Shown here: positions 4,442 through 28,621 of the stretch, one piece after another
Position numbering within the stretch: the first letter of the stretch is position 1
Layout: each line of letters starts with the position of its first letter
Source of the DNA: Pelobacter seleniigenes DSM 18267
GTDB taxonomy: Bacteria > Desulfobacterota > Desulfuromonadia > Desulfuromonadales > Geopsychrobacteraceae
NCBI RefSeq assembly: GCF_000711225.1
Contig: NZ_JOMG01000001.1
Coordinates: 418,855-482,854, forward strand
DNA: 64,000 bases
Direction: 5' to 3'
The notes under the pieces: model-generated
What the model was told of the DNA's origin: nothing
Databases searched by the model: none
What the model saw: only the letters and a program-made list of their open reading frames with translations
Program-made: the position numbers and the translations under genes

Positions 4442-5866
4442 CTATAAACGGTAGGCCGCTTTTGCCAGTTTGTAAGCCAGTTCATGGGCCAGAGTCAGCG
4501 CTTCAGTTTCATCCAGTTGATGTTCGCAGACCAACTCGGCCAGATAGCCGCAGTCGATGCGCCGGGCCATATCGTGACGGGCCGGAATGGTTAAAAAGGC
4601 GCGGGTGTCGTCGTTGAAGCCGACGGTGTTGTAGAAGCCGGCTGTTTCGGTGACCGAGCGGCGATAGAAGCGCATCCCTTCCGGGCTGTCGAAGAACCAC
4701 CAGGCTGGCCCCAGCTTCAGCAGCGGATAGTGCCCGGCCAGGGGCGCCAGCTCGCGCGCCAGGGTGGTGCTGTCAAGAGTGAACAGGATCACGCTTAAAT
4801 TGGTTTCATTGCCGAAGCGGTCGAGCAGCGGCTTGAGCGCTTTAACGTACTCGGTCGGCAAAGGGATGTCGGCCCCCTTGTCGAGTCCGAACTTTGCCAA
4901 AACCTGTCGGTTGTGATTGCGCGAAGCGCCCGGGTGAATCTGCACCACCAGGCCATCGTCCAAGCTCATGCGCACCATCTCGGTCAGCATCTGGCCGCGA
5001 AAATCTTCCGCTTCAGCCGGACTGAAATTGCCCTTCAGGATCTTGTTGAACAGCTTCTCGCAGCTGCTGCGATCAAAATCGCGGGTGGCTGCTGTGGGGT
5101 GGCCGTGGTCTGTTGCGGTGGCTCCCAGTCCGACAAAGAAGGCGCGGCGCTGGGCCAGGGCGTTCAGGTAGCCACTCCAGGTCTGACTGTCTTCGCTGGT
5201 TATTTCGCCCAGGCGTTCGACATTTTTGACAAAGCTTGGGTGCTCGGGATCGACCACCGGATCAGGACGAAAACAGGGGACGATTTTACCGTGCCAGCCG
5301 CTCTGCCGTAAAGACTGATGGGCGGCCAGATCATCCAGCGGCGAATCGGTTGTTGAAATGGCCTCAATGTTGAAGCGGTCGTAGAGAGCGCGCACCTTGA
5401 ACTCAGGTGTTTTCAGCAGGGCATCAAGTTGGTCGTAAAGGCGGTCGGCATTGTCCGGACACAGCCGCTCATTGATGCCGAACAGATTACTCTGGACGGT
5501 TTCAAACCACATCCGCGACGGCGTACCGCGAAACAGGTGATAGTTCTCGGCAAAGATGCGCCAGATCTTGCGTGGGTCGTTTTCAGTCTGGCCGCCGTCG
5601 ACTCTGGGTATGCCAAAGCTCTCCAGCTTAACGCCCTGGCTGTGGAGCATGCGAAAAACGTAGTGGTCCGGAATCAGAAACAGCTGGGCCGGGTCGGGAA
5701 AGTTGATGTCGTCGGCATACCAGCGCGGATCGGTGTGGCCGTGGGGGCTGATGATCGGCAGATCTTTCACTTCGTTATAAAGACTGCGCGCGACGGAGCG
5801 CACGCCAGGGTCAGCAGGTAGCAGACGATCAGGGTGCAGGTTGATTTCAGAGTGAGGCTGCGTCAT
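4442..5866 (-). CDS. uxaC: Glucuronate (uronate) isomerase
   Basis: 474 aa, the usual UxaC length. It starts at an ATG with CGGAG 10 bases upstream. UxaC belongs to the amidohydrolase-fold family and converts D-glucuronate to D-fructuronate or D-galacturonate to D-tagaturonate, the first cytoplasmic step of hexuronate catabolism. The N-terminal HGHTDP motif (H42, H44) provides the first metal-binding histidines, and family blocks such as PRWYADDI and the Arg/His-rich core are present. It is the last gene of a probable operon with TRAP transporter genes and a YcxB-like gene (85-base gap). The transporter and the divergent ROK repressor therefore probably handle a uronate or related sugar acid. 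The later pathway enzymes (reductases, dehydratase, KDG kinase/aldolase) are not in this window. Confidence 0.93.
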   Translation of the reverse strand: MTQPHSEINLHPDRLLPADPGVRSVARSLYNEVKDLPIISPHGHTDPRWYADDINFPDPAQLFLIPDHYVFRMLHSQGVKLESFGIPRVDGGQTENDPRKIWRIFAENYHLFRGTPSRMWFETVQSNLFGINERLCPDNADRLYDQLDALLKTPEFKVRALYDRFNIEAISTTDSPLDDLAAHQSLRQSGWHGKIVPCFRPDPVVDPEHPSFVKNVERLGEITSEDSQTWSGYLNALAQRRAFFVGLGATATDHGHPTAATRDFDRSSCEKLFNKILKGNFSPAEAEDFRGQMLTEMVRMSLDDGLVVQIHPGASRNHNRQVLAKFGLDKGADIPLPTEYVKALKPLLDRFGNETNLSVILFTLDSTTLARELAPLAGHYPLLKLGPAWWFFDSPEGMRFYRRSVTETAGFYNTVGFNDDTRAFLTIPARHDMARRIDCGYLAELVCEHQLDETEALTLAHELAYKLAKAAYRL

Positions 5867-5951
5867 GGGTTTGTGCTCCGTTTCTATGAGATGGGTCTTT
5901 GTTCAATCATTTGCTTCAGTGAACTCAGCCAGGATGGCTGAATCAATTTTC

Positions 5952-6428
5952 TCAGGTTCTGCTGGTGATTTTTTCCGACAAAAAGGCGGACAGGCTTTTG
6001 CCCCGGCCTGCCAAGAGCTGCTTGTCCAGAATGAAACTCTGCTTCGACTGCGTATAGATAATCAGCATTTTGAACAGGCTGATTACGGCTTTGATTTCCG
6101 TGTAATCGACCCGCGAACTTTTGCTGGCGTTGGCAATTTCAAAGCCGGTCTGCTGAAAAGTCATCTGCAGATCGTCCGGCATCTGGCCGACAATCTTGCG
6201 GCTGCGCAGGTAAATCACCAGCGGTTGCAGCACAGGGAACAGGCAGAGTCCGGCCAGCATCAGGATTCTGTAGACAACGCCGGCATCTGGCCAAAAGCGG
6301 TAAATCAAACCGGCCATGGAGATGGTGAAAATGATATTGATCACAGCCATCATGGATCTGTAGATATTGACCAGCGTCAGGATCCAGAGACTGACCGGCT
6401 TAACTCTGTAGCGAAACTTGAATTCCAT
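5952..6428 (-). CDS. YcxB-like membrane protein of unknown function
   Basis: 158 aa. Two N-terminal membrane helices (about 25-45 and 50-75) are followed by a cytoplasmic beta-rich domain of about 80 residues. The layout and the late hydrophobic blocks (for example ALISLFKMLIIYTQS-like strands followed by an ILDKQLL segment) fit the YcxB-like family, whose role is unknown. The gene starts 13 bases after dctM and is followed 85 bases later by uxaC, so it is probably cotranscribed with the uronate uptake genes. It has no family relation to TRAP transporters. It may be a chance passenger or a regulator or accessory of the transporter (inference). Confidence 0.65.
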   Translation of the reverse strand: MEFKFRYRVKPVSLWILTLVNIYRSMMAVINIIFTISMAGLIYRFWPDAGVVYRILMLAGLCLFPVLQPLVIYLRSRKIVGQMPDDLQMTFQQTGFEIANASKSSRVDYTEIKAVISLFKMLIIYTQSKQSFILDKQLLAGRGKSLSAFLSEKITSRT

Positions 6429-6441
6429 GGCCCTGGGATGA

Positions 6442-7734
6442 TCACATGAACACTGACGGCAGATACAGGCTGATCGCAGGGATAAACGTCAGTAACAGCA
6501 GAGTGATGATCATCAGCAGGTAAAAGGGTAAGATTGCTTTCACCAGTCTTTCGATCGAGACCTCTCCGACGGCCGATCCGATAAAGAGAACCGACCCGAC
6601 AGGGGGCGTCAAGAGCCCTATGCCGCAGTTCAAAATCATCATGATGCCGAACTGAATGGGTGAAATCCCGATGCTTGTGGCAATGGGCAGCAGGATGGGG
6701 GTCGCAATCAGGATGATCGGCGCCATGTCCATGATGACGCCCAGAACCAGCAGAATCAGGTTCAGCAATAGAGCTAAAATAATCGTGTTGTCTGTCAGAC
6801 CGAGAATGGCCTTTGCCGCCAGGCTCGGAACGTTCAGGCGGGTCAGCAGAAAACCGAAAATGCTGGACGTGGAAATCAGAATCAGGACGATCGACAAGGT
6901 GTTCACGCATTGATCCAGAACCTTCCAGACCCCCTTCCAGGTCATCCCCCGATAAATAAACACACTGACGATCAAACTGTAGAAGACGGCAATCGCGGCG
7001 GATTCCGTCGCTGTGAAGACACCGCCGACAACACCGACAACAACAATAAGCACGGCGGCAAGAGCCCAGAAGGAATGAGCGATCTGCTTAAACAAGTTCA
7101 AAAGATTGAACTTGTCTCCTTTGGGATAGTTGCGCTTGATCGAAATGATGTAGGAACCGACCATCAGGGTTCCCGCAAGAATAGCGGCGGGCAGATAGCC
7201 AGCCAGAAAGAGACTGCCGATGGAAACCCCGCCAGCGGTCGTCGCGTAGATAACCATGTTGTGGCTGGGGGGAACGAGCAGACCCTCGCAGGAACTGGTC
7301 ACGGTTACGGCGGTCGCGAAGTCATCGTCATAGCCCTGCTCGACCATCATCGGAATCATGATGCTGCCCAGGGATGCCGTGTCAGCGGCTGCAGAGCCTG
7401 AAATGCCGCCGAAGAAATAGGAAGACACGATGTTCACCATGGCCATGCCGCCGCGCATCCAGCCGACACAGGCATTGGCCAACGCGATCAGCTTTTCGGA
7501 AATACCGCCTGACCCCATCAGGTAGCCCATGGTGATGAAAAAAGGCACGGCCATCAGGCTGAAGGAGCTGATTCCTTTCACCATCTGCTGCGCGACTGTC
7601 GTCAGAGGCAGGCCCTGATACAGCAGGCAAAGAATGGACGACAGTGCGACCGCGTAGGCAATAGGGAAGCGGATCAGGATAAAAACAAAAAAACTTCCCA
7701 GCAGGACAAAAATCGCCATACTACTTTCAATCAT
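6442..7734 (-). CDS. dctM: TRAP transporter large permease (DctM)
   Basis: 430 aa, very hydrophobic, about 12-13 membrane helices, the standard length of the TRAP large subunit. Typical blocks are the N-terminal FFVFILIRFPIAYA helix, a GISGSAAADTASLGSI segment and a conserved late GIGLLTPPVGSVLF motif. It couples Na+ entry to movement of the substrate delivered by the periplasmic DctP protein. It lies 3 bases after dctQ. With uxaC downstream, the substrate is probably a hexuronate rather than a C4-dicarboxylate (inference from context). Confidence 0.95.
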   Translation of the reverse strand: MIESSMAIFVLLGSFFVFILIRFPIAYAVALSSILCLLYQGLPLTTVAQQMVKGISSFSLMAVPFFITMGYLMGSGGISEKLIALANACVGWMRGGMAMVNIVSSYFFGGISGSAAADTASLGSIMIPMMVEQGYDDDFATAVTVTSSCEGLLVPPSHNMVIYATTAGGVSIGSLFLAGYLPAAILAGTLMVGSYIISIKRNYPKGDKFNLLNLFKQIAHSFWALAAVLIVVVGVVGGVFTATESAAIAVFYSLIVSVFIYRGMTWKGVWKVLDQCVNTLSIVLILISTSSIFGFLLTRLNVPSLAAKAILGLTDNTIILALLLNLILLVLGVIMDMAPIILIATPILLPIATSIGISPIQFGIMMILNCGIGLLTPPVGSVLFIGSAVGEVSIERLVKAILPFYLLMIITLLLLTFIPAISLYLPSVFM

Positions 7735-7737
7735 GCC

Positions 7738-8259
7738 TTAAGCTTCCTCCCCGAGAACCAGTTTTTTGATCCGGTTATAGATCATTTCCAATTCAAAAAT
7801 GACCATGGCAACCCCGGCCAGCGGCACCGGGAAGTACATCCAGAACCTGGAGAGACTGGGCATGCTGACATAAAACCCTCTGGAACCCAGTCTTTGAGCG
7901 TAGCTCCAGCCAACAACGATCATGACGAATCCCAGCGCCAATATGGCGATATCGGCAAGCAGATCAAGGGCAACAAGGACCTTGGGGGGAAGATAGCGGT
8001 CAAAAGCAGTCATGCGGATATGGGAATTACGCCTGATTGCCAGTGCGGCAGAGAGGACCGCCATGTAGGCCATGCAGGAGAGGACCACCTCTTCGCTCCA
8101 GGCAGGGTCCGGAACAAAGGAAACGTATCGTCCGGTAACGGCCATGGCTGTAATGACAATATCTGTGATCAGAAGGATTTTGCAGATAAAAAGGACCAGT
8201 TTGTCGACATAGTCAAAAAACGGTTTAATTTTATCGACAGTATTAAACACCGCCTTCAT
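7738..8259 (-). CDS. dctQ: TRAP transporter small permease (DctQ)
   Basis: 173 aa from the ATG at 8259, which has GACGGAG 6 bases upstream. The open frame reaches 8325 but lacks a better site. Four membrane helices with the DctQ pattern: the first helix at about 25-45, then SEEVVLSCMAYMAVLSAALAI-type and RRNSHIRMT blocks before helices 3 and 4. It forms the membrane complex with DctM and binds the substrate-loaded DctP. It sits directly before dctM and 133 bases after dctP, with a stem-loop in that gap. Confidence 0.92.
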   Translation of the reverse strand: MKAVFNTVDKIKPFFDYVDKLVLFICKILLITDIVITAMAVTGRYVSFVPDPAWSEEVVLSCMAYMAVLSAALAIRRNSHIRMTAFDRYLPPKVLVALDLLADIAILALGFVMIVVGWSYAQRLGSRGFYVSMPSLSRFWMYFPVPLAGVAMVIFELEMIYNRIKKLVLGEEA

Positions 8260-8332
8260 TGAAACTCCGTCGTTCATAACAATGAGGCACTCGAAAGCTG
8301 GAACTTCGGTGCCGGATAATGTCAAGGACAGG

Positions 8333-8379
8333 ATCCCCCTGGCCAGCGGATTGATGAGAATTCAGCCGGACAGGGGGAT
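8333..8379 (-). promoter_or_regulatory. Stem-loop between dctP and dctQ
   Basis: A perfect 9-bp inverted repeat ATCCCCCTG/CAGGGGGAT (8333-8341 and 8371-8379) encloses about 29 bases with further pairing potential. It lies in the 133-base gap after the binding-protein gene and has no U-tract. Such elements often stabilise the upstream message so the binding protein is made in excess of the permease. That role is inferred here. Confidence 0.45.
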
Positions 8380-8392
8380 GGAACAGGGAGTC

Positions 8393-9391
8393 CTACTGCA
8401 TATCAAGAATCTTCTGGTACAGGGCAGCGTTTTGGGCACTGGCTTCTTTGATGACTCCGGCGCAGGCTTTCTGCCAGGGGCCTTTGTCGGCAACAGGAAC
8501 AACGGTTGCCCCTGCGGCGGCCAGTTCTTTCAGTACCTTCTGCTCGGCACCTTCAGACAGCTCTCTGTTGAAGGCGGAAGCAAGCTTGCCGGCTTCAACC
8601 AGAGCGTTCTGCTGGTTTGCAGACAGCTTGTTCCATGCTTCGTCGGTGATGATAACCTGAATTGCGCCCAGGGTATGGCCGTCGAGGATCATGTAGGGAG
8701 CAACTTCGTTGAAGGCTTTTGACTTGTAGTTGGCAATCGGCTGCTCGGCAGCGTCAACCACACCGGTCTGGAGCGCGGAGTAAAGTTCGTTGTAGTTAAC
8801 AACGGTCGGAGAAGCGTCGAGTGCTTTGACCAGGCCACGCATAACGGGGTCGTTGGAGACGCGGATTTTCATGCCGGCCAGATCGGCCATTTTGTTGAGG
8901 GGCTTGGTCCCGAAGAAATGTCTGAAGCCTTCTTCTCCGTAGAACAGACCGCGAATGCCGGTACCGTTTTCATGGGGCTCGAGAAGGAACTCGGGAGCCA
9001 GATCGCTGGCGGCAAACTTCCAGAAATGATCTCTGCTGGTAAAGGTGTAGGGGATGGACAGCAGTTTGGATTTCTGCCCGCCGTAACTGGTCAGGGCAAA
9101 GGCCGAAATTCTGGACATGTCGATAGTTCCGCCGCCGCCGAGCATGGCGTCAAGGACATCCTGCTCAGCGCCGAGCACGCCGTTGGCCTTGATATCAAGA
9201 AGGACGGTGCCGCCGGACAGGCGCTCAACTTCCTCTTTGAACTTCTGGCCGGTCTGGCCGACGATGGAATCCATGGGGTTAACCTCGGCATAGACAAGCG
9301 TAACTGTCTTGTCAGCGGCCTGTGCCTGACCAGCAAATGTGCCTGATACGGCCAGCGCCATAACCATCAGCAGTAAGAGAGTTTTCTTCAT
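8393..9391 (-). CDS. dctP: TRAP transporter substrate-binding protein (DctP)
   Basis: 332 aa from the ATG at 9391 (GGAGG 8 bases upstream). A further 29 in-frame codons upstream lack signal-peptide character. The signal peptide ends at GQAQA-ADKT. The mature protein follows the DctP family: an early TLVYAEVNP strand, KFKEEVERLSGG, and a conserved late segment from VRVSND-type (here IRVSNDPVMRG) through the DAAEQPIANY region. The DAAEQP block is typical of TRAP binding proteins and lies near the carboxylate-binding arginine (R in KIRVSND). First gene of the uptake operon. Substrate probably a uronate or other sugar acid, from its link to uxaC. Confidence 0.94.
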   Translation of the reverse strand: MKKTLLLLMVMALAVSGTFAGQAQAADKTVTLVYAEVNPMDSIVGQTGQKFKEEVERLSGGTVLLDIKANGVLGAEQDVLDAMLGGGGTIDMSRISAFALTSYGGQKSKLLSIPYTFTSRDHFWKFAASDLAPEFLLEPHENGTGIRGLFYGEEGFRHFFGTKPLNKMADLAGMKIRVSNDPVMRGLVKALDASPTVVNYNELYSALQTGVVDAAEQPIANYKSKAFNEVAPYMILDGHTLGAIQVIITDEAWNKLSANQQNALVEAGKLASAFNRELSEGAEQKVLKELAAAGATVVPVADKGPWQKACAGVIKEASAQNAALYQKILDMQ

Positions 9392-9617
9392 GCAGTGTTC
9401 CTCCATTAGTTGATATGTGGTTATTTTCAAAGGTCGCCGGAAAGTCGGCTCCCCACGCCAAAACATCCTGGTTAACACAGAAAAACGATACCCCAGGTAT
9501 TGGGGTTCAGCAAGTTCTCCCAGTATTTTAGCGCCATTTCTGACTGGACACCATCTTTATTCAGTGATTGAATTAAGCGGATAATAACGGCAGTTTATTT
9601 CAATGTCAATCTGATAA

Positions 9618-20330: not shown

Positions 20331-20834
20331 TCAGCGGGGTGAGTGTTGCAGAAAGACGGTCAGGTCGCGATGCAACTTTAGCAACAGCGGTCTGATCGCG
20401 TCCATATCCCGGCGCGACCAGACCGGCGCGACCATGCCGTGGCTGAAGTCTGCCCCCCCGGAGGCAGGCGGCGAGGCCAGTTGCAGATCGCGGAACGACG
20501 TATTGATCAGGCCGGGTTGCGCTGTCACCTTCATAGAGAAGAGGACTTTCCAGTTTGACTTGGTGAGGCAGCTTAACCAGGAGCAGGGATAATCGAGCTG
20601 CCCGTTGCCGATCACCGTCCCTTCCTGAATATCTTCAAAGGCGATCGGGCCTTTTTCCGAAGTAAAGTTCTCTTCCATCCAATCCTTGGTCGCACCGAAC
20701 AATTGAAGCTGGTTCTTCCCCTTGATGTCGGAGCTGGCTTGAATGGTTTTCTCAGAATCCGGGATGCGGGTCAACTCACCTGCGCAACCGCTCAGCAGGA
20801 GAATCATTAACACGAAAGGGAGGTATTTCAACAT
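20331..20834 (-). CDS. Lipoprotein with DUF4468-like domain
   Basis: 167 aa from the ATG at 20834 (AAGGAG 7 bases upstream; a TTG two codons earlier is an alternative). Signal peptide with lipobox LLSGCAG gives a lipid-anchored protein. The mature part, with KDWMEENFTSEKGPIAFEDIQEG and a following strand-rich segment ending in VLFSMKVTAQ, resembles the DUF4468 family of TBP-like-fold domains of unknown function. Single gene. Confidence 0.75.
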   Translation of the reverse strand: MLKYLPFVLMILLLSGCAGELTRIPDSEKTIQASSDIKGKNQLQLFGATKDWMEENFTSEKGPIAFEDIQEGTVIGNGQLDYPCSWLSCLTKSNWKVLFSMKVTAQPGLINTSFRDLQLASPPASGGADFSHGMVAPVWSRRDMDAIRPLLLKLHRDLTVFLQHSPR

Positions 20835-20981
20835 GCGCAACTCCTTGGGAGAAATTCGGTAAAATTCAAAAAAGCGGAATTATTTTAAGTATAACCTGCT
20901 CCCGCTGCGCTGTCGTCAAAGAAAATGTTACAAAAAAATCAACCCGGAAAAAATGGGGTTGCAGAGTTTCAACGGGGCGTA

Positions 20982-21041
20982 GCAGTCCGTCCTAAGGCAG
21001 TCCGTCCTAAGGCAGTCCGTCCTAAGGCGGTCCGTCCGCCG
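20982..21041. repeat. 15-bp tandem repeat, 3 copies plus a degenerate fourth
   Basis: The unit GCAGTCCGTCCTAAG occurs at 20982-20996, 20997-21011 and 21012-21026, followed by a diverged GCGGTCCGTCCG (21027-21038). The minus-strand CobW-type gene ends inside it: its TAG stop (21024-21022) is the TAG of one unit. Copy number variation by slippage would not alter the protein, because the extra units lie beyond the stop. Confidence 0.9.
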
Positions 21042-22869
21042 AGCTACATGCGTTCAGACCAGCGGCCACCCGGTCAATGTTTTTGCCGATCAGCACCACA
21101 AACCGTTCGCCGTTATCGGCGCCGACCAAAGGGGAAAGCGTCTGCTCGCCAGGGACATACTGGTACACTTGCGGCTCAGCGTCTTCAGCAAACTGGACAA
21201 TCCCTTTGGCGCGCAACAGCTCCGCTGGAAAAGAAGCCGTTGCGGCCAAAAATCGCTGTTTCGAGGGGCATTGTTCAAACAGCACCAGAGCGCTCCCGAT
21301 CTCATCATCCTGATGGGTTCTTCCGCAACCGGAGCGATGCTCCAAATCCTGCGGAAAATTCATCTGTCCGGCAAAATTGACGCCATACAGCAGCGCCGGA
21401 GAGAAGTCGCCATGGTCAGCCCGATGAAGGGCGGCAAAGGGGTTCAACTGCTGCAGGTAGCGCTCCAACTCGACAAGTTGCGGTGCGGCAAGCCGGGACG
21501 CTTTGTTGACCAGCAGGACATCGGCCAAGGCCACCTGGTCCCTTGCCACTTGGTAATCCCTGAACGGGGCAAGGTGTCGGGCAGCATCGACAACGGTTGT
21601 CACTGAACAGAACTCCAGCCGGTCGCTCAGTTCACAGACTTCGCTCAGAAAATTAGCCGGGTTGGCCAGTCCGGTTGTCTCGATCACCACAAAGTCCGGC
21701 TGATACCCGGCGAGGATCTCCCCCAACGCCAGTTTCAGATTGCCGGCCAGGGTGCAGCAGACACAGCCTTCATCCATATCCGTGACCGCATAATGCTGCC
21801 CCACCATTCTGCTGTCGAGCCCTCTGGCGCCGATTTCATTCTGAATAATGGCGACAAAAGCGTTGCGGCTGGCCTGGTATTCAATGAAATGGTTCAGGAA
21901 ACTGGTCTTCCCGGCGCCGAGGAAACCGGTCAGGACCAGCAGTTTCGGCTTTTCACTGATCCCCATGGTGATCTTATCGATACTGAATCCGGCCCCTGGA
22001 ACCTGGGCATTCCACCAGGGCTCGGCCGCATAAGCGGCGGGAAGCGGCGCCCCCTGGCACCACTGGAGCTCGGGCTGGTCATGGAACCCGGCTGCGGCCG
22101 CGGAAATTTTGTCCCCACCCCAGCCAAGCGTCAAAAACCATTCATGGCTCCCGGGCAGCAAGGATTCCGCATACGCGCCAGACTGACTGTAGACCGCTTT
22201 TTTGCCGGCCCGCTGCCAGCGCAGCAACTGCTCCGGTCCGCTCCGTAGACAGAAACTGAAGGATGCCGCCAGCACCCGAAAAAACTCCAGCGCGATCGTC
22301 CAGGTCGGCAGATCCTGATCCGCAGCGCCGGCAGCGACCACCTCCCGAGCCCCGCTTTGCCCGCACATCCGGATCCCGTCCGCGCTGATCAGCAGTTGCC
22401 GTTCGGCCGCCGCCAGCCCCAGGTTGATCTGCCCGGAACGCGGCTCAATCTCAAGCAGCACCCGGCCGATTCCAAACAGTTCCAGCAGCTGCGGATGGGC
22501 AGTAAATTCCCGGACCTGATCGAGAAAATCATCCTGCAGCGCGACCTGACAGGCAGCAATGGAAAAGGCTTCAAGCAATTCCTCCGCCGGATCCGGAAAA
22601 TAGTAGAGGCCGAACGCCGCGTATCCCCGGGACTCATTACCAGACGCATGCTCCCGCGCCAACCCGAACACCCCGCTTCGGCCCGCAACCTTGGCGGTGA
22701 GGCCGCCGCTCGTCAAGGAGCACTGGCGGAGCCCGCGCCAGCCGAGCCGTTGCCTGACCCCGGGGATAAAATTGACCCGCATCAGCACCGCCCAAGGCAA
22801 CTCTGCGGCAGTGCGTTCGGCATTTTCAAGCACGGCGGGCGGTAGCAACTGCTCTAGTTCAGCGTTCAT
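21022..22869 (-). CDS. CobW/G3E-family GTPase with a 300-residue N-terminal extension
   Basis: 615 aa from the ATG at 22869, 5 bases after GGGAGA. Residues 1-301 match no domain I recognise; they have no membrane helix and are rich in Ala, Leu and Trp. From Met302 a canonical COG0523/CobW GTPase begins: Walker A GFLGAGKTSFLNHF, an EIGARGLDS switch region, the metal-binding CXCC motif EGCVCCTL, a Walker B-like VVIETTGLANP and base-recognition NKAS, then a CobW C-terminal domain. CobW GTPases are metallochaperones (zinc, cobalt, iron) for metalloenzymes or cofactors. It is last in a four-gene operon with a Tat-exported metallohydrolase-fold protein and a membrane protein, so it probably supplies a metal to that machinery. 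The two halves may once have been separate genes. Alternative starts further upstream in the same frame are less likely. Confidence 0.85.
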   Translation of the reverse strand: MNAELEQLLPPAVLENAERTAAELPWAVLMRVNFIPGVRQRLGWRGLRQCSLTSGGLTAKVAGRSGVFGLAREHASGNESRGYAAFGLYYFPDPAEELLEAFSIAACQVALQDDFLDQVREFTAHPQLLELFGIGRVLLEIEPRSGQINLGLAAAERQLLISADGIRMCGQSGAREVVAAGAADQDLPTWTIALEFFRVLAASFSFCLRSGPEQLLRWQRAGKKAVYSQSGAYAESLLPGSHEWFLTLGWGGDKISAAAAGFHDQPELQWCQGAPLPAAYAAEPWWNAQVPGAGFSIDKITMGISEKPKLLVLTGFLGAGKTSFLNHFIEYQASRNAFVAIIQNEIGARGLDSRMVGQHYAVTDMDEGCVCCTLAGNLKLALGEILAGYQPDFVVIETTGLANPANFLSEVCELSDRLEFCSVTTVVDAARHLAPFRDYQVARDQVALADVLLVNKASRLAAPQLVELERYLQQLNPFAALHRADHGDFSPALLYGVNFAGQMNFPQDLEHRSGCGRTHQDDEIGSALVLFEQCPSKQRFLAATASFPAELLRAKGIVQFAEDAEPQVYQYVPGEQTLSPLVGADNGERFVVLIGKNIDRVAAGLNACSSADGPP

Positions 22870-22989
22870 CAGGGTCTCCCTGTCACGGGCTCCCCTTTGG
22901 GGAAGCCCGTAATTTATTGCGACCGCTTCAACCAGCATCCGACCCAATTCTGCCCCTGGCCGCCGGTTGCCGATCGACGCAAATATCCG

Positions 22990-24147
22990 CTAACCAAAAG
23001 TAATCACGTCACCATTGCCAAGATAGGCCTTATCTTTGGAACGATGCCGGGCGCTCCCTTCAACCACCGGATATCCGGCGGAAATGAACTTTTTAGCACA
23101 GAGCACCCCAGTGCAGTGATTGCAGCCGATGTGATCGAAGTTGTAATTACGCAGGGAGATCACCAGGTCGTCATATTTGGGGTCCCAGTCATCAAAGGGG
23201 GAAATATGCAGTCCGCCGTAAATGCCGTGGAAGCTGTCGTTTTCATATTTCACTTCTTTGTAAGCGGTTTCCGCAAACTGGATGATCCCCTGATGGCAGC
23301 AGCCCGTCACACTGACCAGCCCCTTGCCGGCCACGTTGAAATAGAGCGACTGCTCGCCATAGACCCGGCAGATGATCGGAATCGGGAACACATAGCTGGC
23401 CATTCCCGGGATATAGGGTGTCAATCCGTTCTTCACGGTCACAACCCGCCCTTGATGCCCTGAATCCTTGAGGTACTGCAGCCCTTCCGGATAAAAACCT
23501 TCCGGAATATAGATGGTGATTCCCGGGTTGTACTTCAGGGTAACCGGCAAGCCCCAGAAATGATCGAAATGCTCATGGGAGATAATCAAGGCTTCGATTG
23601 CCCCAGCAGCCAGCATTTTATCGATCCCTTCCCGTTTGAAACTCTGCTGGATCCAGTCATAGCTCCAACCGCTGTCGAGCAGGAACTTCCGCTGCCGGCC
23701 GGACATTTCCTCCACTTCGATCAGGGCGGCAAAGCCACCGGCATTTTCCGGGTGGACGCTGTTCTTCAGGCAGATCTCCCAGGCCTCTTCCACCCGGTGC
23801 GGCAGCAAGTGTTTGATCTGTTCGATCCCTGCGGCATAGCTGCCTTTGCCAAGTCCCTGGCCGTTACCGAACGGAGGCCAGTTGTAATCGTACTGGTTGA
23901 CCAGCAAGCCGCCGGCCCCTTTGATATCCCCCATCAGCACAGCATTTTCAAACCAGCTGGTTTCACTGATATTGGTCACCTTGACCTTACGGCAGACCCC
24001 GATATCGGTCATTTTCCGGGCCACTTCCGGAAAATGCCGCTTCCGCGCTGGAGAATAGGAATAAAAGCCCATGGCGGCAAGCACCCCCAGGCCGACCCCG
24101 GTCGTTGCCCCTTTAATAAAATCGCGGCGTTTCATATTGTCGGACAT
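22990..24147 (-). CDS. Tat-exported metallo-beta-lactamase-fold protein
   Basis: 385 aa with a strong site (GGGGAGGAG) before the ATG. Twin-arginine signal MKRRDFIKG and a hydrophobic stretch predict export of a folded, probably cofactor-bearing protein. The mature domain is a metallo-beta-lactamase fold of the DHPS/methanopterin-synthase-like group (TM0207 type): HEHFDH metal motif (EALIISHEHFDHFWG), TGCCHQGI and a late CNHCTG. Exact reaction unknown; the group includes phosphatase-like and ribosyl-transfer enzymes. The gene lies 19 bases after the polytopic membrane protein gene and 120 bases before the CobW-type gene. Confidence 0.85.
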   Translation of the reverse strand: MSDNMKRRDFIKGATTGVGLGVLAAMGFYSYSPARKRHFPEVARKMTDIGVCRKVKVTNISETSWFENAVLMGDIKGAGGLLVNQYDYNWPPFGNGQGLGKGSYAAGIEQIKHLLPHRVEEAWEICLKNSVHPENAGGFAALIEVEEMSGRQRKFLLDSGWSYDWIQQSFKREGIDKMLAAGAIEALIISHEHFDHFWGLPVTLKYNPGITIYIPEGFYPEGLQYLKDSGHQGRVVTVKNGLTPYIPGMASYVFPIPIICRVYGEQSLYFNVAGKGLVSVTGCCHQGIIQFAETAYKEVKYENDSFHGIYGGLHISPFDDWDPKYDDLVISLRNYNFDHIGCNHCTGVLCAKKFISAGYPVVEGSARHRSKDKAYLGNGDVITFG

Positions 24148-24166
24148 ACGCTCCTCCCCTGCGTCA

Positions 24167-25579
24167 TTATTTGATCAGATCGATACTGGCGTAGAAAAAT
24201 GGCAGTGCCCAGACCGTGACAAAGTAAAACACCACACCCATCACGGCCCCGGCCCCAAGCCCGATACCGAAACGGCGGTTGGGCCGGATCTCCTCAATCC
24301 GGGCCTGCCGGTCCGCCTGATCCGCGGCGATCTCGTCAGCCGTTTTGGGCACCATTCTCCAGCCGGGCCAGTTATCCATGAACCAGTGGTGGACCAGCAT
24401 CAGATTGACCAGCCAGATGGTCGGAATCATGGGGAACTGCTGCGGATGGGAGAGCCCTTTCTGGGTCCCTAGGAACAGGTGCGACGTCCGATAATAGAAG
24501 ATGTAGAGCAGGATGCTGGCGAGCAGCACCAGCGCGGTGCGAATCGCAATATTGACCGGCATGCTGAATTTGCGCGGCCAGTTGCCACAATAAAAATTGA
24601 GGAACAGGGCCGGAACCAGAACAAAAATTGCCATCTCTCCAACGTGCAGCCAGCGCCAGTCCGGGGCGAAGTCGCGGCGCGTCCCGCGAATCGCTTCACC
24701 GAAGGTCAGCTCCTGGACAAAATAGAAGAAAAAGTGCATGGCCAAAGCGATCAGAATGATCCCGAAGAACGTTGCCAAGCGCCGCCCCCAGTCATGGCGG
24801 ATCAGATTGAAGGGATAGCGTTCCCAGATGGTTTCCACCAGCCAGACCACGACGGTACAGCACATGATCCAGCCGATATGGAAATTGCCCGAAACCGTAT
24901 CAGCAAAACGCTCCCAATACGGCGGGGCAATCGAAGTGAAATACTGCCAGGGATCGGATAGAATGCCCATGTGGGGATGCATGGTTACAAAATAAATCAG
25001 GGTCGACAGAAAAAAGGTGACCATCAGGATGGAAAAGCCTTTGGCCGGTTGAGACAGTTTCTGCCAGGGGGCTTCCTCAAATGCGACCACCCAGGCCGGA
25101 GACAGCCAGGACGCGATGGCGGCAAACATGAGAATGGCCAGCGAAGCATACTCGACGGCAAAAAAGTCGGTAATCCCGGGGATCTTCTGCAGCTGTCCAG
25201 GGTTAAAATAGGCCAGTCCGAAATTCCCCAGGAAACCCTGGAAGAAAACCTTGACCAGCACCAGCAGGATAGCGACGGAAACAAGGGTCAGTACAGCCCC
25301 TTTGTAGAGCGGGTGTGCCCTCTCCAACCAGTCTCTTTTAAAAGGCCAGTAGTTGAAAATATAAACCATCCAGATCATCATGATCAGCCACCAGCGACAA
25401 TACATATACCCGACATACGGGGTATACATGCGCAGGTAACCGCGTGGATCCTGGAAAATCCACCAACTGACATAAAAAACCGTCAGCAGCAGGACCAGGC
25501 TGACCAAAGCCGGGGCAGGTCCTCCCCAACGCTTGGTCAGCTTCCGCTCCTCCAGGAACCCTGCTCCATATCTTTCCAT
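24167..25579 (-). CDS. Polytopic membrane protein of unknown function
   Basis: 470 aa from the ATG at 25579 (AAAGGAGG 6 bases upstream). About 11 predicted helices, unusually rich in Trp, Tyr, Phe and His (segments such as YCRWWLIMM, TMHPHMGI, MHFFFYFVQ, LVHHWFMDNW). I do not recognise a family. Conserved-looking intramembrane His, Trp and Arg residues raise the possibility of a haem, quinone or metal-binding electron carrier, but no His pair of a known cytochrome pattern was identified. It is encoded between a small soluble protein (61-base gap) and the Tat-MBL protein, so it likely forms the membrane part of their system. Confidence 0.8.
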   Translation of the reverse strand: MERYGAGFLEERKLTKRWGGPAPALVSLVLLLTVFYVSWWIFQDPRGYLRMYTPYVGYMYCRWWLIMMIWMVYIFNYWPFKRDWLERAHPLYKGAVLTLVSVAILLVLVKVFFQGFLGNFGLAYFNPGQLQKIPGITDFFAVEYASLAILMFAAIASWLSPAWVVAFEEAPWQKLSQPAKGFSILMVTFFLSTLIYFVTMHPHMGILSDPWQYFTSIAPPYWERFADTVSGNFHIGWIMCCTVVVWLVETIWERYPFNLIRHDWGRRLATFFGIILIALAMHFFFYFVQELTFGEAIRGTRRDFAPDWRWLHVGEMAIFVLVPALFLNFYCGNWPRKFSMPVNIAIRTALVLLASILLYIFYYRTSHLFLGTQKGLSHPQQFPMIPTIWLVNLMLVHHWFMDNWPGWRMVPKTADEIAADQADRQARIEEIRPNRRFGIGLGAGAVMGVVFYFVTVWALPFFYASIDLIK

Positions 25580-25640
25580 AGCTGCCTCCTTTTCGGGAAA
25601 TCTCCCCTCCACCAAACAGATGTTGCAGGCCGGATAACGT

Positions 25641-25892
25641 TTATCGGGGTTGTCGTTTCAGGTCTCGACTGAGCAAGGCCAAGACCTCCTCTCTGTTATG
25701 TGGATCAAGCCCGCGCCGGCGGGCTTCAAAAATCAGCAGATCCTGAGGCAGATCAGCGAGCAGGACGGAAACGGGTTCTTGGGGTGGAGTGTCTCCGGAG
25801 GAGGAGCAGGATTCGAGGAATACGCGGATCGGACGCACTGAGCGGCGAATGAAGAGATGAAGAAAATCCTGGCGGGTCAACTTGTCAGCCAT
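25641..25892 (-). CDS. Small protein, first gene of the CobW/MBL operon
   Basis: 83 aa, starting after GGGGGATAAC. N-terminus TRQDFLHLFIRRSVRPIRVFLES is amphipathic and basic; no transmembrane helix or zinc ligands. The Gln/Leu-rich C-terminal half (LLADLPQDLLIFEARRRGL) looks helical. No family recognised. Its position as the first gene of the four-gene operon implies a role with the membrane protein, for example as a cytoplasmic adaptor (inference). Confidence 0.6.
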   Translation of the reverse strand: MADKLTRQDFLHLFIRRSVRPIRVFLESCSSSGDTPPQEPVSVLLADLPQDLLIFEARRRGLDPHNREEVLALLSRDLKRQPR

Positions 25893-26203
25893 GTTATCCC
25901 CCGTCGTTCACTTTTACGTTATGAAGCCGGCCAGCAAAGTGAAAGCAGCAGTAACCAACAAACTAACAGTTTGGAGCCCTGAATATACCGATAACCACAT
26001 CTATTGATTATTTAGTAGAAATATACCCGGTGTTTTATCGTTGTCAATTCTAAGCTATTCAACGATATTTTATTGGTGAATTATCAACAGCCGGTTTCCA
26101 CGCAAGACCTGTCCGCAGCAGGAATGAACGCTTGAATTCACGGGCAGACCCTTGTAAGATTCGGGCTGATTATTCAAATGTTAAGAGAATCAGGGAGTTC
26201 AAC
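25893..26203. other. Divergent control region between the CobW/MBL operon and the SH3 gene
   Basis: About 311 bases, AT-rich (especially 25980-26100), no gene. It must carry the promoter of the four-gene operon (-) and of the SH3-domain gene (+). The 8-bp inverted repeat at 26036-26067 is the only clear regulatory candidate. Confidence 0.5.
26036..26067. promoter_or_regulatory. Inverted repeat, candidate operator
   Basis: TATCGTTG (26036-26043) and its exact reverse complement CAACGATA (26060-26067) are separated by 16 bases in the middle of an AT-rich divergent promoter region. Half-site spacing of about two helical turns (centre to centre 24 bases) suits a dimeric or tetrameric repressor or activator. 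Confidence 0.45.
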
Positions 26204-27256: not shown

Positions 27257-28621
27257 ATGCGTGGCCAACACCGGGAGCAATTGCGCTCACTGCTGGGAAC
27301 CCGGGTACATAACTCGCGTGAGCTGACCCAGTTGCTGAGTATCAGTCAACCGACCTTGTCACGCCTGATCAACGACATGGGACAGGAGCTGGTCAGTATG
27401 GGCAAAGGCCGGGCGACCTGCTACGGCCTGCCGCGTAAAATTCATGACCAGGACAGCCGTTTTCCGGTCTACCGCATCGATCCGCGCGGTGACGCTCACC
27501 ACTTCGGCACCCTGCTGGCCCTGCAGGGCGGGCAATACTGGTGGGAAGATGCCAACGAAGCGGGGGAGCTGTTCCCTCACCTGCCCTGGTTTCTTCTCGA
27601 TCTGCAGATGTCCGGTTTCGGGGCCAGGATCTTTGCCTATCGCCATAGCGACAGTCTCAACCTGCCGCGAAAAATCAGCGACTGGAACAGCTCCGACCGG
27701 CTGTTTGCCATCAGCCGTTGCGGAGAGGACCGTAGCGGCAACCTGATTATCGGCGAACAATCCCTGGCTCGGTACTTTGAACAAGCCCGCCACGAACCGC
27801 AACTCATCGATATCGGCACCAAGTCCTGGGTCTATCCGCAGCTGGCCCAACAGGCGCTGTCCGGGGAACTCAATGCCGCCCAGGTCGGCGGTGAACAGCC
27901 GAAGTTCACCATCTGCATCAATGATCAGGGGACTCCTTGCCAGACCCTGGTTAAATTTTCACCTGCCGTCGACAGCAACGAGGCCCGCCGTTATGCCGAC
28001 CTGCTGGTTTGTGAACACCTGGCCCTGGAGACCATTCGCCTGGCCGGCCGCTCGGCCGCGCGCTCACGCCTGATCACCGCAGGTCACCAGGTCTTTCTTT
28101 GCTTGAAACGCTTCGACCGGCGCGGCGCCATCGGCCGGTTGCCGCTGGTCTCCCTGCGTGCCCTGCATGAAAAGCTGCAGACCCCCTGCGATACCTGGGT
28201 CGATGCCGCCACCCGCCTGCACCACCACAAATTGATCAGTGCCGGCGATGCGGAAAAGATCCTCTGGCTGGCCCTGTTCAGCGACCTGATCGGTAACAGC
28301 AACCAGCATTTTGCCAATATCTCCCTGATTCCACACCAACAGGATTCTTTTTTGCTGGCCCCGGCCTACGGCATCCGCCCCACTCTTTACGAACCCGTGG
28401 CCGGCGAATTACCGGCCAGCCTGTTCACTCCGCCCGCAGTCCGCAACGAAGCCTCTGCACAATTGTCCAGCGCCCTGGATGCGGCCATCCTATTCTGGAA
28501 AAGTGCTGCGGTTGATGAACGCATCTCAGGCAATTTCCGCCAGATCTGCTATGAAAATTGCGAGCTGCTCAAACTGCAAAAACGGGGGCCCCAGCTGATT
28601 ATCCCCAACCAGAAAAATTAA
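27257..28621 (+). CDS. YjjJ-type HipA-like protein with HTH, predicted catalytically dead
   Basis: 454 aa, ATG 6 bases after AAAGGAGG. An N-terminal helix-turn-helix (about 10-55, SISQPTLSRLI) replaces a separate HipB antitoxin, as in E. coli YjjJ/HipH. The HipA kinase fold follows: the ATP-binding AQVGGEQPKF block (about 215-225), KRFDR, and the region of the catalytic loop. Where active HipA proteins have GNxDxH, this one reads GNSNQH with N349 at the catalytic Asp. The metal-binding Asp of the YDxLP motif is G372 (PAYGIRP). Both key aspartates are thus missing, so kinase activity is unlikely and a DNA-binding regulatory role may remain (inference). No hipB-like gene is adjacent. Confidence 0.85.
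   Translation: MRGQHREQLRSLLGTRVHNSRELTQLLSISQPTLSRLINDMGQELVSMGKGRATCYGLPRKIHDQDSRFPVYRIDPRGDAHHFGTLLALQGGQYWWEDANEAGELFPHLPWFLLDLQMSGFGARIFAYRHSDSLNLPRKISDWNSSDRLFAISRCGEDRSGNLIIGEQSLARYFEQARHEPQLIDIGTKSWVYPQLAQQALSGELNAAQVGGEQPKFTICINDQGTPCQTLVKFSPAVDSNEARRYADLLVCEHLALETIRLAGRSAARSRLITAGHQVFLCLKRFDRRGAIGRLPLVSLRALHEKLQTPCDTWVDAATRLHHHKLISAGDAEKILWLALFSDLIGNSNQHFANISLIPHQQDSFLLAPAYGIRPTLYEPVAGELPASLFTPPAVRNEASAQLSSALDAAILFWKSAAVDERISGNFRQICYENCELLKLQKRGPQLIIPNQKN

Follow-up and report, generated by a model that had tools for sequence, protein, structure and literature searches.

Four genes on the minus strand of a 64,000-nucleotide stretch of the Pelobacter seleniigenes DSM 18267 genome (contig NZ_JOMG01000001.1; the whole stretch analysed is called the window) form an operon that we tentatively read as a self-contained, horizontally spread unit encoding a metalloenzyme complex of the inner membrane, at its periplasmic face. 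The genes encode, in order, a small protein, a membrane protein, a protein of the metallo-β-lactamase fold (MBL) with a twin-arginine translocation (Tat) signal, and a CobW GTPase fusion. A sequence-only reading of the window had described this one-strand set, and it is present as described, with the same coordinates, the same intergenic gaps on re-measurement (61, 19 and 120 bases) and good ribosome sites, purine-rich by eye, upstream of the starts. The membrane protein and MBL genes occur once each in the 5.09-Mb genome. Compared with Malonomonas rubra (locus L009), nonsynonymous (dN) and synonymous (dS) divergence are 0.092 and 1.55 for the membrane protein (dN/dS about 0.06) and 0.114 and 2.24 for the MBL (dN/dS about 0.05), and from these comparisons the operon genes are under selection. 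Conservation, dN/dS and co-occurrence rule out chance or an open reading frame artefact. The kind of system proposed is a known one, an exported metalloenzyme with its own maturation GTPase, and what is new is the unnamed protein families at its heart. The sequence-only reading knew of no described system with this exact set; the literature searched, with most subscription papers and all preprints outside its scope, gave no description of the operon, and the parts of PMC5193443, PMC13047784, PMC5320481 and PMC2770081 that were available do not concern it.

Recurrence of the gene set and three tiers of the membrane protein

The four-gene set recurs far outside close relatives, the check that the sequence-only reading had proposed. 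About 300 amino acids ahead of CobW in the fusion constitute a protein family of their own (the N-domain), which that reading had not noticed and which is a stand-alone gene in L005–L008, L058, L060, L078, L081 and L101. We collected 59 related loci from named genomes and left out, count by count, contig ends that were too short. By tblastn, an MBL gene lies no more than 300 bp downstream of the membrane protein gene in all 56 loci usable for this count, and 35 of the 37 that reach far enough go on to the N-domain and CobW. In the remaining two, L058 (Accumulibacter) and L060 (Anaerolineaceae), the N-domain is a gene of its own and CobW was not matched. Profile searches of 297 genomes of the home phylum, with E < 1e-40 taken as a strong match, found the membrane protein in at least 26 genomes, a lower bound since the matches of G168 and G345 were found only in fetched DNA. 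Fifteen of these matches are strong, and all 15 genomes also hold the MBL and the N-domain, which occur in 35 (at E < 1e-40) and 19 genomes of the sample, respectively; the N-domain of G222 lies at a contig end. The MBL family was seen without the membrane protein in eight of fifteen fetched regions (L098–L100, L103–L105, L110 and L111).

Related membrane proteins fall into three tiers. Tier 1, the window type, is 59–86% identical to the window protein over wide distances; closest to the window protein among named relatives are Malonomonas rubra and Desulfuromusa (82–86%), with which the tree groups the window at support 100/99. In tier 2 the membrane protein has about 400–420 amino acids and 24–28% identity (four measured), and it is accompanied by the MBL, the small protein and a stand-alone N-domain, with no CobW in the stretches read. 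All four tier-2 parts were seen in L005, L006, L007, L078, L081 and L101; one or two were not seen in L008, L079, L097 and L082/L102. A CxxCH cytochrome gene stands beside the set in five of the ten tier-2 genomes (L005, L006, L008, L101 and L082/L102). The likeness of these cytochromes to SorB, the monohaem cytochrome c of sulfite dehydrogenase, is weak (22 bits in L101, 17.4 in L005) and far under the NCBIfam cut-off of 93, which places them outside SorAB. Tier 3 is a lone membrane protein of about 415–480 amino acids as called, four of which score 60–74 bits, and neither MBL nor N-domain was matched in the eleven fetched loci (L116–L126). Ten of the 26 membrane protein matches in the home phylum belong to this tier, and in those genomes neither the N-domain nor an MBL was matched at E < 1e-40.

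Since the distant versions are without CobW, CobW looks added to an older core, which we read from these sequences as membrane protein, Tat-MBL, N-domain and small protein, CobW having been joined by fusion to the N-domain; its loss in tier 2 may be an alternative to later addition. The absence of CobW from the oldest version, in the stretches read, is a point that the sequence-only reading had missed. A correlation between the C-terminal helix of the membrane protein, an insert in the MBL and the presence of CobW is suggestive, rests on few independent events (G076, at L109, has CobW without the helix) and was not used. Frames are split in L061 and L062.

The distribution is patchy. Six alphaproteobacterial rows are sister to the window's group inside a mixed set, with support 90/96 that is under the starred level, and the seed genome was the only match among 385 genomes of Pseudovibrio's class and among 301 from the phylum to which the Anaerolineaceae locus belongs. 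Spread through horizontal transfer is the simplest reading, and some bins may be misassigned. The plasmid collection searched for copies gave none at 1e-5.

Two proposed working proteins, a GTPase fusion and a small protein

The membrane protein matches no family at E ≤ 1 in Pfam or in NCBIfam and no PDB sequence even at E 10; no named transporter family was matched, in line with the earlier description of it as an unknown membrane protein. A structure model built on 48 sequences (predicted local distance difference test score, pLDDT, 81; predicted template modelling score, pTM, 0.85) found nothing in the PDB by Foldseek at E ≤ 0.001 and nothing by VIA-align at Z ≥ 5, where the rows were mostly G-protein-coupled receptors, which we read as a common helix arrangement. 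The model has twelve helices of at least 17 residues; eleven, ten in the core plus the C-terminal helix, are read as membrane-spanning, the number first proposed from the letters. The last helix lies beyond the sequence end in most tier-2 and tier-3 rows. With helix limits set by hand from the model and the side assigned by the positive-inside rule, the N-terminus is placed inside, even loops being mostly richer in lysine and arginine. Histidines 201, 203, 234, 312, 367 and 378 are at least 95% conserved in the 48 sequences, five of them invariant, and all six are predicted from the model to lie at periplasmic ends or loops. His312 is the sole histidine invariant over 22 aligned rows from the three tiers (two rows being the same gene). 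An HPH motif persists in tier 2, where it varies (HPN in L005–L008, YPH in L079), and tier 3 lacks it. That the membrane protein is the working part, as was suggested earlier, is made plausible by its strong conservation, with over a hundred invariant residues in the 48 sequences, and by its periplasmic-side histidines; against a sole role, the MBL is conserved about as strongly.

The MBL matches Pfam Lactamase_B (PF00753; 26.7 bits against a cut-off of 22.7). Its Tat signal, called clear in the sequence-only reading, exceeds the domain cut-off of NCBIfam TIGR01409 (20.0 against 16.7 bits) and falls below that of Pfam TAT_signal (14.1 against 22.7), and the arginine pair is invariant in an alignment of 25 tier-1 and tier-2 sequences. 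The HEHFDH metal site was likewise found, at residues 191–196. Seven positions (H191, H193, D195, H196, H285, H314 and H344) are invariant in the 25 sequences and are the presumed metal ligands, in keeping with the alignment to PDB entries 7dck and 2p4z. Those entries (E 1.2e-17 and 2e-14, respectively) and 3h3e (Tm1679) are the PDB relatives, in a family that we take to be COG1237. The HxHxDH region and the GC-H, GG-H and HC(T/S)G motifs align with them, whereas the window protein adds the Tat signal, an ETSWF(D/E)N block that is mostly invariant in the 25 sequences, a tier-1 insert of about 40 residues and the linkage to a membrane protein. It is not a class B (drug-resistance) β-lactamase by NCBIfam bla_class_B_core (17.3 bits against a cut-off of 100). 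By eye, the signal ends in an AxA-like site in tier-2 MBLs and in none in tier-1 MBLs; tier-1 MBLs are therefore probably membrane-anchored through an uncleaved signal.

In the fusion, the CobW domain (PF02492; 125.8 bits against 20.7, residues 311–479) and CobW_C (PF07683; 32.5 against 22) both lie within residues 311–608, and the P-loop GFLGAGKT and the metal motif CVCC (in EGCVCC) bear out the earlier call of a CobW GTPase with CXCC. These features, and a presumed client in the adjoining genes, are shared with the COG0523/CobW members of the G3E GTPases (E. coli YjiA, CobW, the nitrile hydratase activator). The window GTPase differs in being fused behind a 300-residue domain outside Pfam and NCBIfam and in falling below every listed NCBIfam equivalog cut-off (CobW 88.5 against 332.1, ZigA 77.4 against 600, PRK11537 GTPase 92.2 against 361). 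According to PMC2770081, COG0523 subgroups may differ in metal specificity and target, and the proteins are linked to zinc limitation.

The N-domain model is confident (pLDDT 94, pTM 0.92). Foldseek gave nothing below E 0.07. The best nine VIA-align rows (STK_08120 twice, Cor a 1, 2pcs, MtN13, Hyp-1, CqsB2, PYR1 and START) read by title as the Bet v1/START/SRPBCC kind, which we take to be the helix-grip fold; these matches are weak (Z 3.2–4.4, root-mean-square deviation 3.7–4.5, 106–132 residues), and the modelled resemblance may be just a common arrangement. Were it true, the CobW partner would hold a pocket for a small or greasy ligand.

Nothing in Pfam or NCBIfam matches the small protein at E ≤ 1. 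A member of its family lies within 400 bp upstream of the membrane protein gene in 41 of 58 relatives. It evolves fast (dN 0.69 against Malonomonas rubra over 71 codons), and its relatives carry an N-terminal (R/K)xFF, Tat-motif-like, without a hydrophobic stretch. It might serve as an adaptor or targeting factor. None of the four proteins has a PADLOC match, and a phage-defence role was rejected.

Layout, control elements and neighbouring genes

Table 1. Features of the operon and of other parts of the window (window coordinates)
Feature	Position	Strand	Remarks
Small protein	25641..25892	-	83 aa, first gene
Membrane protein	24167..25579	-	470 aa from ATG; a TTG at 25615 would add 12 aa
Tat-MBL protein (metallo-β-lactamase fold)	22990..24147	-	385 aa; probably signal-anchored; related to PDB 2p4z / 3h3e / 7dck
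CobW fusion	21022..22869	-	615 aa from ATG; TTG at 22947 possible
N-domain of CobW fusion	21976..22869	-	residues 1–298; separate protein family; confident predicted fold
CobW/COG0523 GTPase part of fusion	21022..21975	-	P-loop, CVCC, CobW_C
Hairpin, MBL-CobW spacer	22883..22912	-	13-bp perfect stem, 4-base loop, no U tract
Sigma-70-like promoter candidate	26020..26047	-	TTGACA-16-TATATT; consensus match only
Tandem repeat	20982..21037		15-base unit, 3.7 copies, 97% matches; overlaps the CobW gene end
Lipoprotein-like DUF4468 protein	20331..20840	-	same strand, downstream of operon
HipA-like protein, presumably	27257..28621	+	N-terminal DNA-binding part; translation read by eye
Uronate-isomerase-like gene and TRAP transporter set, presumably	4442..9478	-	translations read by eye

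The spacer between the MBL and CobW genes has a folding z of −5.4, with none of 200 shuffles as good. Among the 31 loci with a usable spacer (longer or shorter ones were left out), 30 have a stem of at least nine uninterrupted pairs, and z is below −2 in 28; of 310 random stretches matched in length, 46 reached nine pairs. A hairpin was found in 14 of the 16 MBL-CobW gaps compared, against 19 of 61 other same-strand gaps, a difference whose p of 9e-5 is too good as related loci are not independent. Among four relatives, the L009 spacer is weaker (z −1.6 over the stretch used), and the five stems read are unlike in sequence, none with a clear U tract. The hairpin could be a stabilising or processing element that splits structural from maturation gene dosage, and standing after the MBL gene it would set lower or separate expression of the maturation gene. 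The promoter candidate, an 11/12 consensus match, sits some 130 bp ahead of the first gene; the scan gave 8 sites in the 6-kb region against 2.8 in shuffles. Riboswitch control was rejected: in the window and 13 further loci no scanned RNA element lay at the operon, and the one S-adenosylmethionine (SAM) riboswitch, two transfer RNAs and group II intron detected were all away from it.

Neighbour clusters were counted over 67 loci, of which L001–L004 repeat the window's genome or L009–L011. A PAS-like protein is near the operon in 25 loci (Pfam finds PAS in the L024 member and nothing in that of L009), a GntR regulator in 21 (two of them repeats) and sigma-54/PAS regulators in 15 (checked for L041). 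A NifX-like gene stands in front in seven of the 59 tier-1 loci and in tier-2 L078, with Nitro_FeMo-Co confirmed for L034 and L078. The window operon is without any of these recurrent neighbours, and the M. rubra GntR has at best a 25% identical counterpart in the genome of the window. Downstream of CobW nothing is constant across the loci. A cluster resembling methyl-accepting chemotaxis proteins appears in 8 loci (Pfam checked for L017 alone); these genera hold many such proteins, and we judged, with no formal test, that a chemoreceptor link is not above chance. A family of small exported-looking proteins lies beside or inside the operon in L010, L032, L034, L045, L047, L049, L061, L062 and L063, and its L032 member has no Pfam or NCBIfam match.

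A proposed metalloenzyme complex weighed against other readings

In the reading that we tentatively prefer, the complex would have two working parts: the membrane protein, with strictly conserved histidine, tryptophan, arginine and tyrosine near its predicted periplasmic side, and the MBL, which would be folded and loaded with metal in the cytoplasm before export, Tat being a system that passes folded proteins. For maturation, the N-domain would recognise a working part and the fused CobW GTPase would deliver the chosen metal before export. The order we favour is that CobW and the N-domain load the MBL in the cytoplasm, that Tat exports it, and that its uncleaved signal then keeps it on the membrane beside the membrane protein, where the pair might act on a small compound at the periplasmic face. 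As a CxxCH cytochrome accompanies the CobW-less set in five of ten genomes, we favour a redox reaction on a small external compound over plain hydrolysis. A bolder form of this reading, which we consider unlikely, sees a new class of membrane-embedded metalloenzyme with a periplasmic MBL partner, its tiers spread across several phyla: the older form would exchange electrons with a c-type cytochrome, and the newer would have acquired a metal-loading GTPase of its own, equipped with a recognition domain of the ligand-binding helix-grip kind.

Several observations weigh against a metalloenzyme complex or its redox form. His89, among the window protein's five remaining histidines, is 90–95% conserved and predicted on the cytoplasmic side, and our confidence is lowered because it is well conserved on the side opposite the other six. 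The membrane protein model is of only middling confidence, and loops 4, 7 and 10 fit the topology poorly. No CxxCH gene was seen in L007, L078, L079, L081 and L097, where mostly short stretches were read, and none in the tier-1 maps; the tier-2 cytochromes are below the Pfam cut-offs. G298 (L106) has an N-domain in a 655-residue frame, the length of a fusion, without a membrane protein or MBL match, and this may be a remnant or another use; G168 has the membrane protein and the MBL without an N-domain match. Finally, tier 3 stands alone, in some loci beside acyl-CoA genes, which fits a transporter better.

That last point belongs to an uptake module, to which we give a low probability: the membrane protein would be an organic-acid permease, the periplasmic MBL would first hydrolyse an ester, lactone or conjugate to set the acid free, and CobW with the N-domain would supply the MBL metal. 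Beside the solitary tier-3 homologues, 4 of the 11 loci hold an acyl-CoA-synthetase family (a search of the L125 member agrees with this), and genes that by eye resemble acyl-CoA dehydrogenase and methylmalonyl-CoA mutase occur in two tier-3 loci each. In L009, the GntR regulator that precedes the operon carries an FCD domain, a family that often binds carboxylates. However, the cluster lists show no catabolic gene family recurring next to tier 1, and tier-1 identities together with the many invariant residues are high for a permease. Nor was a named transporter family matched, tier-2 and tier-3 examples included, where one tier-3 protein gave a sub-threshold Abhydrolase_9_N.

We regard as quite improbable a role in metal acquisition or homeostasis, in which the membrane protein would move or sense a scarce metal, the CobW fusion would receive it in the cytoplasm, and the MBL would be a partner that binds or releases metal. 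CobW family membership suits this, as do the ExbB-/TonB-like genes that adjoin the operon in L017, L054, L055 and L108 (Pfam checked for L108 only; two are near copies) and the tie of COG0523 to zinc limitation (PMC2770081). The core nevertheless persists without CobW, and no cobalamin or metal riboswitch reached the gathering score in the 14 sources, Zur boxes not having been searched. The regulators examined are of GntR, PAS, sigma-54 and HTH_17 types, none of which is, to our knowledge, a known metal regulator.

Assembly of a mixed metal cluster or pterin-like cofactor for other enzymes, the idea of the sequence-only reading, is very doubtful: the NifX-like genes, radical-SAM-like genes in four loci (by eye) and the annotation 'pterin synthase' that MBL relatives presumably carry speak for it, and against it, export is predicted for the MBL whereas cofactors are normally assembled in the cytoplasm, and most of the 59 loci show no NifX-like or radical-SAM-like genes in the stretch read. 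A metal-centre role as such fits the CobW family, while for a pterin there is nothing beyond the broad fold family of the MBL, and none of the sequence features tested sets a Pterin-RFAP-type synthase activity apart from other MBL proteins.

Hydrogenases and formate dehydrogenase are Tat-exported periplasmic respiratory enzymes with a membrane subunit and dedicated maturation proteins. The metalloenzyme complex that we propose resembles them in combining an exported cofactor protein, a membrane partner and cytoplasmic maturation factors in one operon, and differs in that, as far as the family scans show, no subunit family is in common. Of its five protein parts, three (the membrane protein, the N-domain and the small protein) lie outside the Pfam and NCBIfam families, and two of the three mark a module under strong selection that is common to bacteria of the home phylum, alphaproteobacteria and others. 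If our reading is true, the operon would encode a new enzyme of the cell envelope that comes with its own step for metal loading. It would also offer a clean case for asking which clients COG0523 GTPases serve, with the presumed client one gene away and the CobW-less version as a natural control.

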